A stretch of 64,000 bases of DNA, taken from contig NZ_VIJZ01000003.1 in assembly GCF_006874425.1 (NCBI RefSeq), forward strand, positions 372,001 to 436,000, given 5' to 3'. The stretch's first letter is position 1, and every line of letters begins with the position of its first letter. This stretch comes from Paenibacillus ottowii. Its GTDB lineage: Bacteria > Bacillota > Bacilli > Paenibacillales > Paenibacillaceae. A program made the translations under genes and the position numbers. This document shows, in pieces, positions 2,275 through 53,092 of this stretch. Below the pieces are notes generated by a model that made no database searches, was not told the DNA's origin, and saw only the letters and a list, made by a program, of their open reading frames with translations.

Positions 2275-3108
2275 CTATTTCACTGAGCCCTGTGCAAATC
2301 CGTTATAGATATATTTTTGTAGTGATAAAAATGCAACCAGCGTCGGAATAATGGCAATAATGATGCCCGCGCTAATGACCTCCCATTGCGATCCATAGGG
2401 CCCTTTAAACTTAAACAGTGCCGTCGATATCACCTGAAGGCTTGTTTTGGGCATATACAGGAACGGGGTATAGAAGTCATTGTAGATATTAACGCCCTTG
2501 ATAATAATTACTGTCACAATGGCAGGCTTCAGCAACGGCAAAATAATGCGCCAGTAGATGGTCAAATAGGAAGCCCCATCTAGCATGGCCGACTCATCCA
2601 GCGCCACCGCGATAGATTCCAGAAACTGAAGAAAAATATACACGGCAATAATATCAGTTCCCAAATACAGTAAAATAGCTGCCCAAGGCGTGTTAAACAG
2701 TTCCAGCTTGTTAATGATCTGGAAGGTCGATACCTGTGTCGTCACCCCCGGAATGAGCGTAGCGAGCAAGAACGCACCCAACATAAGACTCTTACCTTTA
2801 AATTTAAAACGATTCAAAATATACGCGATCATGGAGCCAGTCAGCGTAGCCCCGATGATGGAGATCAGCAATATAAAGGCCGTGTTCACAAATCCGGTTA
2901 GCATATTGCCATCCACAAAGGCTTTGGCATAGTTCGCCCAGTTCAACCAGTTGACCGGGGGAGTCAGAGGACTGGTTGCCGCATATTCAGCCTTCGTCTT
3001 CAAAGATGCAAACAAAATCACAACAATCGGCAGCAGAGCAATGAACGCACCTAGTAATAGCGCGGCGTATTTGATGCTGTTGGCCAGTATTCTTTTCAGC
3101 TTATACAT
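2275..3108 (-). CDS. Carbohydrate ABC transporter permease, MalG type
   Basis: Inner-membrane permease of a CUT1 sugar importer with six predicted hydrophobic segments. The EAA loop reads ESAMLDGASYLTIYWRIILP, with the conserved Gly, and is where the ATPase docks. Its 277 residues are normal for MalG-type permeases. It starts 2 nt after the MalF-type gene and precedes the GH130 phosphorylase, so it belongs to the leftward mannan operon. No ATPase gene is encoded nearby; as in many Bacilli, a shared MsmX-type ATPase elsewhere probably energises the importer (known for the family, inferred here). Confidence 0.93.
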   Translation of the reverse strand: MYKLKRILANSIKYAALLLGAFIALLPIVVILFASLKTKAEYAATSPLTPPVNWLNWANYAKAFVDGNMLTGFVNTAFILLISIIGATLTGSMIAYILNRFKFKGKSLMLGAFLLATLIPGVTTQVSTFQIINKLELFNTPWAAILLYLGTDIIAVYIFLQFLESIAVALDESAMLDGASYLTIYWRIILPLLKPAIVTVIIIKGVNIYNDFYTPFLYMPKTSLQVISTALFKFKGPYGSQWEVISAGIIIAIIPTLVAFLSLQKYIYNGFAQGSVK

Positions 3109-3110
3109 GA

Positions 3111-3995
3111 TTAGTCCTCCTCTCCCCGAATCAGCAAGCGCTGAAGCAGCGTAACAGCAACGACGATCAACAGCAAAACAACTGCCATTGCCGAGGCCAA
3201 ACCAACCTTGCTGTACTTAAATGCCACATCAATCGTCTGAATGACGAACGTTTTGCTGCCATTGGAGCCGCCGGTCATAATGTAAGGAATATCGAATGCA
3301 CTGATCGCGCCGCTAATCGCCAAAATCAGGTTTAGCTGCAAAATCCGCTTGATGGTCGGCAAAATAATAGAGCAGAACTGATGCCAGCGGTTGGCTCCGT
3401 CGATATCAGCTGCTTCATACAGATCACTGGATATGGAGGAAATCGCACCTAGAAACACAATAAAGTTAAAGCCCATGTATCTCCAGATCGACGTACCTGC
3501 CAGCGAAATATTAATAATCTCCGGGTTGCCCAGCCACAGCTTGACATACGATCCCAAGCCCACTGCCTGAAGTAGTGTGTCAAGGGTGCCGTCTGGCTTA
3601 AAAAAGAATAGAAAAATAAAACCAATCGCCACCCCATTCATCAGGGAAGGGAAGAACAAAATGCCTTTAAAGAAATTTTTAAACCAGGTTTGAAAGCTGA
3701 GAATGGTTGCAAAATAAAGAGCCAGACCCATCTGTACAAACGTGGCTACAAAGTAATACAGACTGACCTTAAACACCGAGAAATACTCGGGGTCGGTAAA
3801 AATTTTAATATAGTTTTCAAAGCCCACATATTCCAGACGCTTACTATAGCCGTTCCAGTCCGAAAAGCTGTATTTAAACATATTGATCACCGGCAAGTAT
3901 GCAAAAGTGACCAGCAGCGCCAGCGGAATAAACGAAAAGGCAACAATAATCGCTAATCTTTGTTTGGAGTAACTGAGATTCGAAAATTTAAACAT
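3111..3995 (-). CDS. Carbohydrate ABC transporter permease, MalF type
   Basis: Second membrane subunit of the CUT1 importer, 294 residues with about six transmembrane segments. Its EAA loop is YEAADIDGANRWHQFCSIIL, with Gly at the conserved place. A short N-terminal extension before the first membrane segment is common in MalF-type subunits of Firmicutes. It lies between the solute-binding lipoprotein (66 nt gap) and the MalG-type gene (2 nt gap), the standard order for such operons. Substrate assignment to mannooligosaccharides rests on the flanking GH130, epimerase and esterase genes. Confidence 0.93.
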   Translation of the reverse strand: MFKFSNLSYSKQRLAIIVAFSFIPLALLVTFAYLPVINMFKYSFSDWNGYSKRLEYVGFENYIKIFTDPEYFSVFKVSLYYFVATFVQMGLALYFATILSFQTWFKNFFKGILFFPSLMNGVAIGFIFLFFFKPDGTLDTLLQAVGLGSYVKLWLGNPEIINISLAGTSIWRYMGFNFIVFLGAISSISSDLYEAADIDGANRWHQFCSIILPTIKRILQLNLILAISGAISAFDIPYIMTGGSNGSKTFVIQTIDVAFKYSKVGLASAMAVVLLLIVVAVTLLQRLLIRGEED

Positions 3996-4061
3996 GCTGC
4001 ACCTCCTGGCTATCCGTCATCGACTGTCATATCAATCTTTTCTTATGATCAGTTCGGATGG

Positions 4062-5381
4062 CTATTTCGCTTCCTTGGCTGCCACCTCAGCACGCGCCTT
4101 CACCCATGCATCGTTCAGATCCTTCATAATGTTGTCGTACGATTCCGGGCGGTTACCCACCGCTGCCTCAATAATGCGTTTCTTGAAATCAGGCTGCCAC
4201 AAGCCGATTTCTCCTGTTTTATCGATTTTATCGACAATTCCTTCCTGCCCCTTCGGAGACGGAGTGAGAGGCTCAAAAACAACTCCCTCTTTCTCATACT
4301 GCTTCAAAATGGCAGGCATTTCGGCACCTTTCAGTGGACTAATGCTGCCTGCCTGCTCTACGGCGTAGTTGGATTTTTCGGTAAACCAATCCACCCAGGC
4401 ACGGGCCGCCTCTTTATTTTCACTGTTTACGTTAATACCGAGGTTAAAATCACCTGCCAATGGTACAAGTACCTTGGAAGCATTCGTCGGGAAAGGCATA
4501 AAACCGATATCATCCTTGTTAGGAGCTACGTTTTTAATCTGATCAATCGCCCAAGAGCCGAGGACCATCGTACCGATTTTGCCTTGAGCGAGATCCGCCT
4601 TGGAGGTCTCCCAATCCGTAGTCGTTGGATCTTTTTCAATCAGGCCATTTTTCGCTGCATCGTATAGAACCTTGTACAGCTCATAGTGAGGCTGGCCCTT
4701 CGTGAAATTATCATCTGTAGTCGGTTGTGTGACATTCACGTATTCCTTCGTACCTGCCACTGTGGCCAGACTGGACTCCCACTGAGTCAGTGCCCAGCCA
4801 GAGGCATAGTTCGTAAACAGCGGTACTGCCTTGGTTTTGTCTTTAATTTGCTGTAACGCTTTCAGGAATTGATCTGGTGTTTTCGGAATTTCTGTGATTC
4901 CTGCTTCCTTGAACACTTTTTTGTTATAAATCACGCCAGAGTAAACCATCGCAATTGGGATACCGTAGCTGTTACCATTCACTGTACGTTCTTCAATGCC
5001 GGTATACTTGTTTTTCATTTCGTCATAAGTACCTAGTGGCTCGAAAAAGTTAGGCAACTCTTCGATTGGTATGCTGCCAGGAATCAGCAACACATCTCCG
5101 TAATCCCGGGTTCCCATCCGAATTTTAATTTGTCCATCATAATCGGCCAATGCCTGAAAATTGACCTTCACGTTCGGATAAAGTTTGTTAAATTCCTTGG
5201 CATAATCCTGAAATACGGTATCCACAATATCTGTCCGCTGTGTGATCACCGTAATTTCCCCTTCCGGACCCTTCGGATCAGAACCGGCAGCTGGCGTTTC
5301 CTTCTTTGAGCTACAGCCAGTAAACAGCCCCGCTACCAATAGCACGGATAGCAATGACATCAAAACCTTGGACAACTTCAT
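4062..5381 (-). CDS. Sugar ABC transporter solute-binding lipoprotein
   Basis: Extracellular family-1 solute-binding protein, 439 residues, tethered to the membrane by lipidation. The N-terminus has a type II signal peptide ending in the lipobox LFTGC, followed by a charged linker. The mature part shows typical features of sugar-binding proteins (GTMVLGSWAID, and LGINVNSENKEAARAWVDW near the C-terminus). It is the first gene of the leftward mannan operon. A strong promoter at 5436-5465 lies upstream, with an operator between promoter and gene and a cre site inside the promoter, so it should be induced by mannooligosaccharides and repressed by good carbon sources. The ligand is inferred from context. 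Confidence 0.92.
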   Translation of the reverse strand: MKLSKVLMSLLSVLLVAGLFTGCSSKKETPAAGSDPKGPEGEITVITQRTDIVDTVFQDYAKEFNKLYPNVKVNFQALADYDGQIKIRMGTRDYGDVLLIPGSIPIEELPNFFEPLGTYDEMKNKYTGIEERTVNGNSYGIPIAMVYSGVIYNKKVFKEAGITEIPKTPDQFLKALQQIKDKTKAVPLFTNYASGWALTQWESSLATVAGTKEYVNVTQPTTDDNFTKGQPHYELYKVLYDAAKNGLIEKDPTTTDWETSKADLAQGKIGTMVLGSWAIDQIKNVAPNKDDIGFMPFPTNASKVLVPLAGDFNLGINVNSENKEAARAWVDWFTEKSNYAVEQAGSISPLKGAEMPAILKQYEKEGVVFEPLTPSPKGQEGIVDKIDKTGEIGLWQPDFKKRIIEAAVGNRPESYDNIMKDLNDAWVKARAEVAAKEAK

Positions 5382-51130: not shown

Positions 51131-51170
51131 AAACAAGAAAGGTCAGCCTTTATGCTGACCTTTCTTGTTT
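51131..51170. terminator. Bidirectional terminator between lipoprotein and lysozyme genes
   Basis: AAACAAGAAAGGTCAGC pairs perfectly with GCTGACCTTTCTTGTTT. Confidence 0.88.
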
Positions 51171-51189: not shown

Positions 51190-51792
51190 CTATAGTGTAT
51201 ATACTGGATATTTATGGGCATACTTTCTACCTTTACAAAATAAAGTTGCTTCTTCATTTCTTCTTTTTTGTAAATTTCTATCATATGAAAATGCTTTGCT
51301 GACTAATTTTGAACAAGTATCAATTTGACTTTGTGAAAGTGGACCAACAAAAGTTGGATATATATGCGCATTGGCAAGCATAGCTTTTACATCATTGGTT
51401 TTTAGCACCCCAGGACCTGCATTAAAAGTGAGCGAAACAAGTGCATCAAACTGAGATTGTGAAAATTTATGACCGCTAGGAAGTACCAAGTTATTTACTG
51501 CCGCTACAGCACTTGCAGTATCATCAGCAAAAAAAGTATTTGCTTTAGACTGAGAAATTGGTGAAGTATAACCTAGATTTAAAGATTTTGATAGAGCATC
51601 CGCTTGTGCTTGGGTTAGAAGAGAATCATTTGGATTACCTGTTGTATTTTTAGTATATACTTTAGTCTTTGTTATCAAATGTCCCCAACCAACAGTTGGG
51701 TAACCATAAGGATCTCCATAAAATTTCAAGGAAAATCCCTCATGTTTTTTGATCAGGTTTGCTCCATCTGTGCCTAAAGAGAAATTTGCCAT
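51190..51792 (-). CDS. GH24 (T4-like) lysozyme without signal peptide
   Basis: 200-residue peptidoglycan muramidase. The T4-lysozyme triad is intact: Glu18 in KKHEG, Asp27 in YGDPYG and Thr33 in YPTVGWGH, with the canonical 8- and 5-residue spacings. LVSLTFNAGPG further on is also typical. ATG 51792 follows GGAGTG; an upstream in-frame GTG lies inside that site. No signal peptide, so like phage endolysins it needs a holin or cell lysis to reach the wall. It is the last gene of the split-sigma cassette and has its own copy of the cassette's promoter motif. No other phage genes are near. Confidence 0.92.
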   Translation of the reverse strand: MANFSLGTDGANLIKKHEGFSLKFYGDPYGYPTVGWGHLITKTKVYTKNTTGNPNDSLLTQAQADALSKSLNLGYTSPISQSKANTFFADDTASAVAAVNNLVLPSGHKFSQSQFDALVSLTFNAGPGVLKTNDVKAMLANAHIYPTFVGPLSQSQIDTCSKLVSKAFSYDRNLQKRRNEEATLFCKGRKYAHKYPVYTL

Positions 51793-51898
51793 AATAATCA
51801 CTCCTGAAATTAATATTAGTTGAAGAACAATAGGGAGGAATCATAGACAGAGCACCATTCCCAAGTTTTCTGCAATGCCGTATTGTCTTCACATATAT

Positions 51899-51930
51899 AT
51901 AAAGAGAAATGAGTCTCTTTTTTTACAACC
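51899..51930 (-). promoter_or_regulatory. Cassette promoter motif, copy B (before the lysozyme gene)
   Basis: Minus strand GGTTGTAAAAA, 9 nt, ATTTCTCTTTAT. The two boxes and the spacing are identical to copy A at 52741-52772; the 9-nt spacer is different. It lies 12 nt after the RsoA-like gene and about 107 nt before the lysozyme ATG. Confidence 0.7.
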
Positions 51931-51942
51931 ACTCTCCAAATT

Positions 51943-52140
51943 TTATTTCAATTCACTAATATCAAAAGTTTGTATAACCTCAATCATTTTGACATAGAGT
52001 TCCTGTTTTAAATCATCTCGATGATCGGCGGGTACTTGTCGCAAGGAGGCTTTGATCTTTGGTGTAAAAGATTCTAGGATATGTAATGTTGCCTCCTGAT
52101 TGTGGTGGTGCTGTGCTTGTACTAAAAGTTCGGCCAACAT
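51943..52140 (-). CDS. RsoA-like small protein (putative region-2 subunit of a split sigma factor)
   Basis: 65 residues starting MLAELLVQAQHHHNQEATLHILESFTPKIKASLRQVP, with the helix DDLKQELYVKMIEVIQTFD at the end. This matches small helix-turn-helix-16/RsoA-type proteins, whose helices resemble sigma-70 region 2. In B. subtilis RsoA pairs with SigO, which lacks region 2, to form a working sigma factor. Here it lies 4 nt after the YvrJ-like gene and in the same operon as a region-4-only sigma protein, the same gene company as in B. subtilis. Role as co-sigma factor is inferred. Confidence 0.7.
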   Translation of the reverse strand: MLAELLVQAQHHHNQEATLHILESFTPKIKASLRQVPADHRDDLKQELYVKMIEVIQTFDISELK

Positions 52141-52144
52141 TAAA

Positions 52145-52300
52145 TCACCGCTTTACGTTTTTTTGTATTTCATTCTTCAAGCCATTAATGGCATCGCTTA
52201 GATCAGATATTTTTTTTTCAAAACGAATAAGTAGATACAAAGTAATTGCAATCGGGAAGCCTAAATTAGCAATATAAGCAGCAATGTCACCCTCCGTCAT
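52145..52300 (-). CDS. YvrJ-family membrane peptide (holin-like topology)
   Basis: 51 residues: MTEGDIAAYIANLGFPIAIT then one membrane helix (to about residue 25) and an amphipathic, charged helix (FEKKISDLSDAINGLKNEI..). The GFPIAITLYLLIRFE core is the YvrJ signature. AGGGGGAT precedes the ATG. In B. subtilis yvrJ is part of the SigO-RsoA regulon. The topology also resembles BhlA/UviB holin-like peptides, and it sits beside a lysozyme that needs an exit route. Holin function is a hypothesis. Confidence 0.8.
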   Translation of the reverse strand: MTEGDIAAYIANLGFPIAITLYLLIRFEKKISDLSDAINGLKNEIQKNVKR

Positions 52301-52303
52301 AAT

Positions 52304-52699
52304 TTATCCCCCTTCCGTTATTAAGCTGCGCAATTTAGTTAGAGCTTTTAAGCGGTGTTTCGAGACATTTTGTTGGGATACTCCCAATATTCTGGCTATT
52401 TCCTTGTCATTTAGTGCTTGTACGTAAGCAAAAGATAAAATCTGTTGTTGTTGTGCTGAGAGGGATTCATAAGCTTGGTAAAGCGAGTGATCCGTAATGT
52501 GATCTTTTAAATTTGGTGGCACAGATTCTGAATCATGAACAGAAAGTAAGACAGATTCTAGGTTTTCATCGTTGTCTAAAGCCAGCGGGAATCGGCTGTC
52601 CTTCACTCGTCTCTTTTTGTCATAATTGATAGAGTTATAGTGAATAAGATTGGCCATATACTTGATAAAACGACGATTTACCTCATCATCCTTATTCAA
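52304..52699 (-). CDS. SigO-like sigma factor fragment carrying region 4 only
   Basis: 131 residues from a TTG at 52699 behind GGGGGG; the ATG-like start 75 nt upstream would run across the promoter motif. The C-terminal half is a sigma-70 region 4 (YESLSAQQQQILSFAYVQALNDKEIARILGVSQQNVSKHRLKALTKL), with the recognition helix VSQQNVSKHRLKAL. The N-terminal half (NRRFIKYMANLIHYNSINYDKKRR) has no recognisable region 2. This is the SigO (YvrI) layout, which requires RsoA. It heads the leftward cassette and carries promoter copy A upstream, so it may activate itself. Confidence 0.78.
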   Translation of the reverse strand: MNKDDEVNRRFIKYMANLIHYNSINYDKKRRVKDSRFPLALDNDENLESVLLSVHDSESVPPNLKDHITDHSLYQAYESLSAQQQQILSFAYVQALNDKEIARILGVSQQNVSKHRLKALTKLRSLITEGG

Positions 52700-52740
52700 T
52701 ATAAGCCCCCCCTTCTTTATGAAGAGATTGTTCCTACTTA

Positions 52741-52772
52741 ATAAAGAGAAATAAAACCGTGTTTTTACAACC
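52741..52772 (-). promoter_or_regulatory. Cassette promoter motif, copy A (before the SigO-like gene)
   Basis: Minus strand GGTTGTAAAAA (52762-52772), 9 nt, ATTTCTCTTTAT (52741-52752). Ends about 42 nt before the TTG start. It does not look like a sigma-A promoter. Confidence 0.7.
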
Positions 52773-53092
52773 AATTCCCAAAATCAAGAACAAATGTTCC
52801 TCTTTTTATTATTAATAGAACCAAGGTCAAAGTCGTATCTAGGTAGATCAGGGAAGGCATGGAGGCGTCACGTCCGCTCTGCGTTGTTGCGCTCCCATCA
52901 AGCAGCCATGCATAAAGGCAGCAAAAAAAGAACTGGCATACGGTACGCCAGTTCTTGAAATAGAAGACACCAAAAAGGGTAAACCTCCTAACCAGTCCAA
53001 CACTTTGTAAGTGTGTATTGGACTGGTGGATATGCACACGTCAGCTTCCAGCAATTAGCTCAGCGTATAACCGCCATCTGGGAACAGCACGT
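52773..53092. other. Intergenic region after the AraC gene
   Basis: Holds a terminator (52923-52956) for the leftward AraC gene and a second hairpin, CCAGTCCAA..TTGGACTGG (52992-53026), with an inner CACTT/AAGTG stem. Two overlapping leftward frames lack start signals and are not called. Confidence 0.5.
52923..52956 (-). terminator. Terminator of the AraC-family gene
   Basis: Minus strand AAGAACTGGC, 9 nt, GCCAGTTCTT, then six more T. Confidence 0.85.

Follow-up and report, generated by a model that had tools for sequence, protein, structure and literature searches.

A cassette of four genes with two copies of a promoter-like element

The window analysed in this study, a stretch of 64,000 nucleotides from Paenibacillus ottowii (contig NZ_VIJZ01000003.1, positions 372,001 to 436,000), contains a compact cassette of four genes that lie head to tail on the minus strand between positions 52699 and 51190 and encode a SigO-like sigma subunit (here called SIG), a peptide of the YvrJ family, a small RsoA-like protein and a GH24 lysozyme (Table 1). 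This arrangement had been proposed in an initial annotation made from the sequence alone, and positions, strand and Pfam families all bear it out. With the gene limits refined from the sequence, SIG starts at a TTG codon preceded by GAAGGGGGGG, inside a listed open reading frame (ORF) that extends upstream to position 52774. The cassette is flanked by hairpins at both ends and is AT-rich, with a GC content of 0.30-0.39 compared with 0.45-0.53 on one flank and 0.37-0.44 on the other.

Table 1. Features of the split-sigma cassette and its borders.
Feature	Position	Strand	Remarks
SIG, SigO-like sigma subunit with region 4	52304..52699	-	131 aa
YvrJ-family peptide	52145..52300	-	51 aa; 3 nt after SIG
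RsoA-like sigma subunit, region 2 half	51943..52140	-	65 aa; 4 nt after YvrJ
GH24 lysozyme	51190..51792	-	200 aa; ATG preceded by AGGAG
Promoter-like element of the sigma operon, GGTTGTAAAAA-N9-ATTTCTCTTTAT	52741..52772	-	Blocks and spacing as before the lysozyme
Promoter-like element, second copy, upstream of the lysozyme	51899..51930	-	12 nt past the rsoA-like stop
17-bp terminator-like hairpin closing the cassette	51131..51170		-26.9 kcal/mol, z -9.8
13-bp hairpin with T run, upstream, between the cassette and an AraC-type gene	52928..52956	-	z -5.5

The sigma operon and the lysozyme gene are preceded by the same promoter-like element, GGTTGTAAAAA-N9-ATTTCTCTTTAT, which occurs twice in the window and in none of 100 shuffles. 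Its two 32-bp copies agree in GGTTGTAAAAA and ATTTCTCTTTAT, and the nine bases between these blocks differ. When up to three mismatches were allowed, the 5.5-Mb genome contained two exact matches, one before SIG and one before the lysozyme gene, and one further site with three mismatches inside an antisense ORF, compared with no site for the reversed control. Throughout the genus, this strict pattern, searched at the same tolerance, yielded 27 sites in 16 of 75 genomes, of which 22 had two mismatches or fewer, as against 15 sites for the reversed control. Ordinary sigma-70-type promoters were rejected as the driver, with 16 sites found versus 18.3 expected in shuffles. At the level of sequence, the shared element at both transcription units is more than a chance arrangement of genes, and its presence upstream of the SIG-YvrJ-RsoA operon itself leads us to predict self-control.

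SIG and the RsoA-like protein resemble two halves of one sigma factor

The sigma subunit had been described as carrying region 4 and lacking region 2, in agreement with our profile searches: over residues 103-149 of the longer ORF, SIG matches the Pfam model Sigma70_r4 (5e-10), and the Pfam search returned none of the models for region 2. It also passes the general sigma70-ECF model of NCBIfam, yet aligned only from model position 49 of 165, so that a trailing piece of region 2 may still be present on SIG and the boundary between the halves may fall inside region 2. The RsoA-like protein matches the Pfam family HTH_16 (PF12645) at 3e-5 and, in NCBIfam, PRK14082 at 1.6e-11 (below the curated cut-off) and RsoA (NF041489) at 8e-6 (25.8 of 100 bits, below the equivalog cut-off). 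Since both NCBIfam matches remain under their curated cut-offs, we retain the initial name RsoA-like and do not call the protein an RsoA equivalog.

An RsoA profile that was limited by hand, replacing an earlier iterated profile that had taken in full-length sigma factors, aligns with full-length sigma factors located near other YvrJ genes in their N-terminal portion. In one of them (L090_34), the RsoA profile aligns with residues 16-74 (6.5e-7) and the SIG profile with residues 134-187 (4e-8). Among 11 full-length candidates, eight were matched by the RsoA profile (E<0.01), eight by the split-SIG profile and five by both, and none of 11 split SIGs was matched by the RsoA profile (full-sequence E values not below 0.2). 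Because the two profiles match opposite ends of full-length sigma factors, SIG and the RsoA-like protein appear to be the two parts of a single sigma factor. A single-chain sigma factor, which the initial annotation had considered as a possible outcome of realignment, was rejected on the basis of this complementarity and the silence of the RsoA profile on the split SIGs.

The element recurs in held-out split-sigma loci

A scan of 398 genomes of the class found YvrJ in 136. In a sample of 60 genera, represented by one locus each (the best listed match), reading of the loci gave a split SIG and RsoA in 13 genera, a full-length sigma factor near YvrJ in seven and neither in 40. A relaxed form of the element, GGTTGTW-N17-CNCTTTA with one mismatch allowed, was matched 47 times in a design set of 29 split loci (573 kb, both strands), compared with two matches in 48 YvrJ loci that have no split sigma factor (940 kb), one match for the reversed form and one to six matches at other spacings. 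The 29 split loci include near-identical Paenibacillus loci, and the relaxed element had been shaped on the very loci in which it was counted; a held-out set was therefore assembled. Its members were obtained by scanning genome contigs with a YvrJ alignment (best 80 of 175 relatives, 59 with SIG and RsoA) and were thus chosen by YvrJ similarity rather than by the element; after seven repeats had been dropped, 73 of the 80 loci were kept, 52 of them split.

In these 52 split loci (1.17 Mb), the relaxed element occurred 52 times in 33 loci at the 17-base spacing, compared with zero matches for the reversed form and zero to six at spacings of 13-16 and 18-21 bases. The 33 positive loci are not all independent, because several are close relatives (Lysinibacillus, Cytobacillus). 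Thirty-two of the matches lie before a non-cassette ORF that has a ribosome-binding site, 17 before a cassette gene and three before neither; counted by locus, 14 have the element only before a non-cassette ORF, nine only before a cassette gene, eight before both and two before none. The notion that the two elements of the window are a mere repeat was rejected in view of the differing intervening bases and this spacing-specific enrichment.

Genome-wide, the relaxed form is nonspecific, with 20 matches in the genome of the window versus 13 for its reversed form. One perfect relaxed element of this genome (L275, G000:C41:53172) lies some 235 nt upstream of an ORF of 236 aa, hydrolase-like on visual inspection, and it may be there by chance. 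A family-wide pattern with a 15-base spacer before TCTCTTTAT, which leaves the window's sites with their 16-base spacer unmatched, was found in 4 of 295 genomes, with L078, L080 and L081 among them.

Lysozyme and element persist where the regulator genes are damaged

The assignment of the fourth gene to the GH24 lysozymes is well founded: its product matches Pfam PF00959 at 1.5e-18, the phrog_7 endolysin family at 8e-26 and GH24 chains in the PDB. The Phage_lysozyme domain and the catalytic triad are present, the latter with an E-8-D-5-T spacing (read from the sequence) that we take to be that of T4 lysozyme. Judged by its hydrophobicity, the N-terminus is not signal-peptide-like.

Seventeen of the 75 Paenibacillus genomes contain any match to the lysozyme; 11 carry long orthologues, and the remaining matches are short pieces of other proteins. 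The promoter-like element precedes all 11 long orthologues, in ten cases as searched and in G026, whose cassette is reduced to an rsoA end, with a spacer one base shorter. The lysozyme and sigma genes are thus not the chance neighbours that the initial annotation had allowed for. SIG, YvrJ and RsoA are all kept in only three of the 11 genomes (that of the window, G053 and G068); G069 has a frameshift in YvrJ only, and in the remaining seven SIG is missing or broken. In all ten loci tested, the lysozyme reading frame is uninterrupted for 196 or more of its 200 residues, and the ratio of nonsynonymous to synonymous substitution rates (dN/dS) was 0.25-0.58 in ten pairs, calculated from five of nine lysozymes, the other four being left out as the anchor string was absent from them. 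This persistence of lysozyme and element in genomes with damaged regulators suggests that cargo units equipped with a sigma-responsive promoter of their own outlast the sigma genes or move separately from them.

The cargo behind the element is exchangeable

In related loci, the place of the GH24 lysozyme behind the second element is taken by a glucosaminidase-like protein (L009; PF01832 at 2e-4, under the cut-off), a SleB-type hydrolase (L022, L023 and L025; Hydrolase_2, PF07486, at 5e-7 in the one tested) or a 163-aa protein without assigned function (L021), and in several genomes the replacement cargo directly follows an rsoA remnant. The lysozyme is therefore not the dedicated partner for which it had been taken, being instead one cargo among several that replace each other. 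The genus also contains a second, distant type of cassette, which comprises a SIG of about 207 aa, YvrJ and RsoA, with a related element before its cargo. This cargo is a divergent Amidase_3 (5.6e-37) in L035 and, alternatively, a protein of 239 aa that matches GH46 weakly (0.004, under the cut-off), which had no credible match in a PDB sequence search and whose structure model was discarded (predicted local distance difference test score, pLDDT, 48).

A census of 154 element matches over all loci scanned grouped the associated non-cassette ORFs of at least 60 aa into 30 families, some of them possibly chance associations. By a crude proxy for signal peptides (an N-terminal segment with a mean hydropathy of at least 1.9 over 12 residues), 28 of the 30 families have no signal-peptide-like N-terminus, several of them wall hydrolases. 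Of the remaining two, one has an evident signal peptide (L144, L148) and the other is an ABC-permease-like protein (L144). Pfam backs, among other families, GH24, Hydrolase_2, Amidase_3, S8 subtilase, NAGPA and two that contain PG_binding_1. S8 proteases of such appearance may also be intracellular. When ten cargo proteins were submitted to one Pfam search, five remained without a family and one had chance-level matches only; for a 150-aa cargo family, the predicted structure (pLDDT 70) had no PDB match at E 0.001.

Three further cargo families deserve mention. A hydrophobic family of 134-163 aa occurs, next to opposite-strand neighbours, in L095 (cargo and neighbours at 3011-3466 (+), 3547-4032 (-) and 4172-4597 (-)) and L083 (9521-9925 (-) and 8845-9306 (+)); it is also present in L021, L028 and L141. 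The neighbours combine a membrane anchor with a C-terminal domain that joined the cargo profile upon iteration, so that, to judge from these features, cargo and anchored neighbours look like a bacteriocin with its immunity proteins. A leaderless family of 227-252 aa is found in L144, L156, L195, L197 and L205, and in four of these five loci an S8 subtilase likewise lies behind the element. Its L144 member, which had no Pfam match, contains a CCxxHDxC stretch that we take to resemble a phospholipase A2 motif. Finally, a small leaderless family, marked by cysteines and by a CP(I/V/L)-G-H-like signature at the N-terminus, is present in L030 (5892-6209), L083, L092, L167 and L177; the one member tested had no credible Pfam family.

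The YvrJ peptide is a candidate holin

The predicted YvrJ-like membrane peptide is indeed a member of that family (PF12841 at 4e-16), and it also matches the phrog_4898 holin family at 3.5e-4. The same holin family is matched, at E<=1, by each of the 15 YvrJ peptides taken from split cassettes, the best at 2e-9 and several weakly. As read from the sequences, YvrJ is small and has one hydrophobic segment followed by a charged stretch. We propose that it may serve as a holin-type exporter.

In a viral sample of 30 contigs with YvrJ, of which 14 were inspected and nine had neighbours tested, Amidase_2, Amidase_3 or Peptidase_M15 lay within about 1 kb of YvrJ in 7 of the 14 inspected contigs, and no peptidoglycan hydrolase was present among the YvrJ neighbours tested in L227 and L236. 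SIG and RsoA accompany YvrJ in one of the 30 viral loci (L222, an IMG/VR contig of 140 kb). In the range L082-L140, most of the displayed Bacilli loci without a split sigma factor have two proteins of 70-80 aa, presumably DUF1659/DUF2922-like, followed by YvrJ. A full-length sigma factor is sometimes found upstream of this trio, and several Clostridia-type loci are similar.

Discussion

A split sigma factor, an element shared by the two transcription units and by held-out relatives, and a changing cargo behind it are the features, read directly from the DNA, on which our interpretation builds. In the model that we consider reasonably probable, SIG and the RsoA-like protein would assemble as one sigma factor, contributing region 4 and region 2, respectively, which would recognise GGTTGT-N18-CNCTTTA and transcribe its own operon, including YvrJ, plus the lysozyme unit behind it, thereby forming a self-amplifying switch. 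YvrJ, as a small holin-type protein with a single helix, comparable to BhlA/UviB, would let the leaderless lysozyme reach the wall, leading to controlled release or to lysis of the producing cell. We infer that the sigma pair acts on the elements and that YvrJ moves the cargo, with either a lytic or a non-lytic outcome. The initial annotation had likewise envisaged a two-subunit sigma factor in control of a lysis or export module; its analogy to UviA/UviB stands at the sequence level and its lysis or export step remains a plausible reading, while the dedicated role of the lysozyme has to be given up.

Several observations weigh against this model. The element is missing from 19 of the 52 held-out split loci and from the OxdC-type locus L100, and only 8 of the 33 positive held-out loci combine an element before a cassette gene with one before another ORF; conversely, 21 held-out loci without both sigma halves yielded seven matches in four loci, with one for the reversed form. 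Some targets appear cytosolic or ordinary, such as the ABC permease, the one signal-peptide family and the glutaredoxin-like proteins in L123, L156 and L166, which do not fit export. BhlA is absent among the Pfam matches (E<=10) of the 15 YvrJ peptides, which comprise YvrJ and chance-level matches only, and in most of the 20 displayed Bacilli loci without a sigma gene YvrJ follows two proteins of 70-80 aa, with no hydrolase. Moreover, 8 of the 11 lysozyme genomes retain lysozyme and element but have one or more of SIG, YvrJ and RsoA damaged or lost. The second cassette type, which is present in six of these eight genomes and absent from G026 and G058, might serve the element in trans in those six.

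Among the alternatives, it is conceivable, if unlikely, that YvrJ is a membrane partner of the sigma factor, acting as a sensor or an anti-sigma-like anchor rather than a holin, and that the lysozyme, still driven by the sigma factor, exits by another way or on cell death. The location of YvrJ between the two sigma subunits, with gaps of 3-4 nt, its proximity to a full-length sigma factor in 7 of the 60 genera sampled, the lack of a BhlA match in Pfam and the weakness of several of its 15 holin-family matches are all in line with such a role. It accords poorly with the 40 genera in which YvrJ has no sigma gene counted beside it, with the peptidoglycan hydrolases near YvrJ in half of the viral contigs inspected and with the fact that every one of the 15 peptides matches the holin family. 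Still less probable is that the cassette represents a captured phage-like lysis module in decay, whose link to the sigma factor was once real and which itself now has little role. While the damaged regulator genes in 8 of 11 genomes, the AT-richness of the stretch and its patchy distribution (11 of 75 genomes) could be explained in this manner, the open lysozyme frames and their dN/dS values argue against it, as do the four intact genes of the window and the occurrence of the same arrangement, with other cargo, in many genera. That the genes are chance neighbours and the shared element a repeat is highly improbable: the weak genome-wide contrast of the relaxed motif and the 27 versus 15 sites of the strict pattern in the genus would agree with it, whereas the two exact matches and empty control in the genome, the spacing-specific held-out enrichment and the differing bases between the blocks contradict it.

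Extending the model of a split sigma factor with a holin-type YvrJ beyond the window, we tentatively suggest, at less than even chances, that Bacilli possess a hitherto overlooked, signal-peptide-independent secretion route composed of split SigO-RsoA-type sigma factors, a YvrJ translocator and promoter-tagged, exchangeable leaderless cargo. If so, its cargo would comprise wall hydrolases, subtilases, a phospholipase-like protein and a bacteriocin-like family with membrane-anchored immunity-like homologues, and the lysozyme of the window and the wall-located OxdC of Bacillus subtilis would be two cargos of the same route. To our knowledge, OxdC has no signal peptide, and the route would offer a testable answer to the question of how it gets into the cell wall. 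The widespread YvrJ family, without a known role in the literature searched, would gain a candidate function, and near split-sigma genes the spacing-specific element permits candidate cargo to be listed by sequence alone. The titles and opening abstracts listed in a literature search contained nothing that ties YvrJ to export or a split sigma factor to a wall hydrolase.

Comparison with known systems

The closest relative of the cassette is the SigO-RsoA system of B. subtilis, in which two sigma halves drive oxdC-yvrL, yvrJ and their own operon (PMC8103513, PMC10028694); OxdC, whose gene is the principal member of the SigO regulon, has been reported to accumulate in the wall of the cell (PMC3542257). 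The likeness lies in the distribution of regions 4 and 2 over separate proteins, SigO (YvrI) and RsoA (YvrHa) in B. subtilis, and in yvrJ as a target of the pair (PMC8103513), a predicted one in the cassette. However, YvrJ lies inside the sigma operon of the Paenibacillus cassette, and OxdC-YvrL are targets in B. subtilis, whereas the second element of the cassette precedes a GH24 lysozyme. The cassette is further set apart by its element, GGTTGTW-N17-CNCTTTA, which is absent from L100. The protein of that locus that we take, as a cupin, to be of the OxdC type resembles the cargo of the window in that visual inspection shows no signal peptide. SigO-RsoA, to date associated with a single small regulon for oxalate decarboxylase, would gain a predicted promoter code and, in Bacilli, a predicted wider role in timing the release of leaderless, often wall-active proteins.

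Other systems resemble the cassette in their general design. The UviA/UviB/amidase/Bcn5 locus of Clostridium perfringens likewise combines a dedicated sigma factor, a small holin and a peptidoglycan hydrolase with a bacteriocin, Bcn5, that has no Sec signal peptide, and TcdR-TcdE of Clostridioides difficile shares the combination of a sigma factor, a holin and cargo outside Sec, for which non-lytic release is reported (PMC9527704). However, UviA and TcdR are single-chain sigma factors of group 5, with regions 2 and 4 on one chain and a -35 sequence of TTTACA (PMC4031146), whereas the Paenibacillus sigma factor is split and associated with GGTTGT. TcdE, moreover, belongs to another, polytopic holin family, and the model of the BhlA/UviB holins themselves is unmatched by YvrJ, in contrast to the phrog_4898 holins, which all 15 peptides match. 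Phage lysis modules in which a YvrJ-like peptide accompanies an amidase have YvrJ near a hydrolase as well, with no split sigma factor in 29 of 30 viral loci. The DUF1659-DUF2922-YvrJ trio of Bacilli and Clostridia (DUF names as we presume them to be) shares YvrJ and sometimes a nearby sigma factor, yet that sigma factor is unsplit, only two element matches were present in 48 such loci, and most of those displayed showed no hydrolase. The cassette would work like UviA/UviB; yet, because its sigma factor is split and of the SigO-RsoA type, it is not a member of the UviA/UviB kind.

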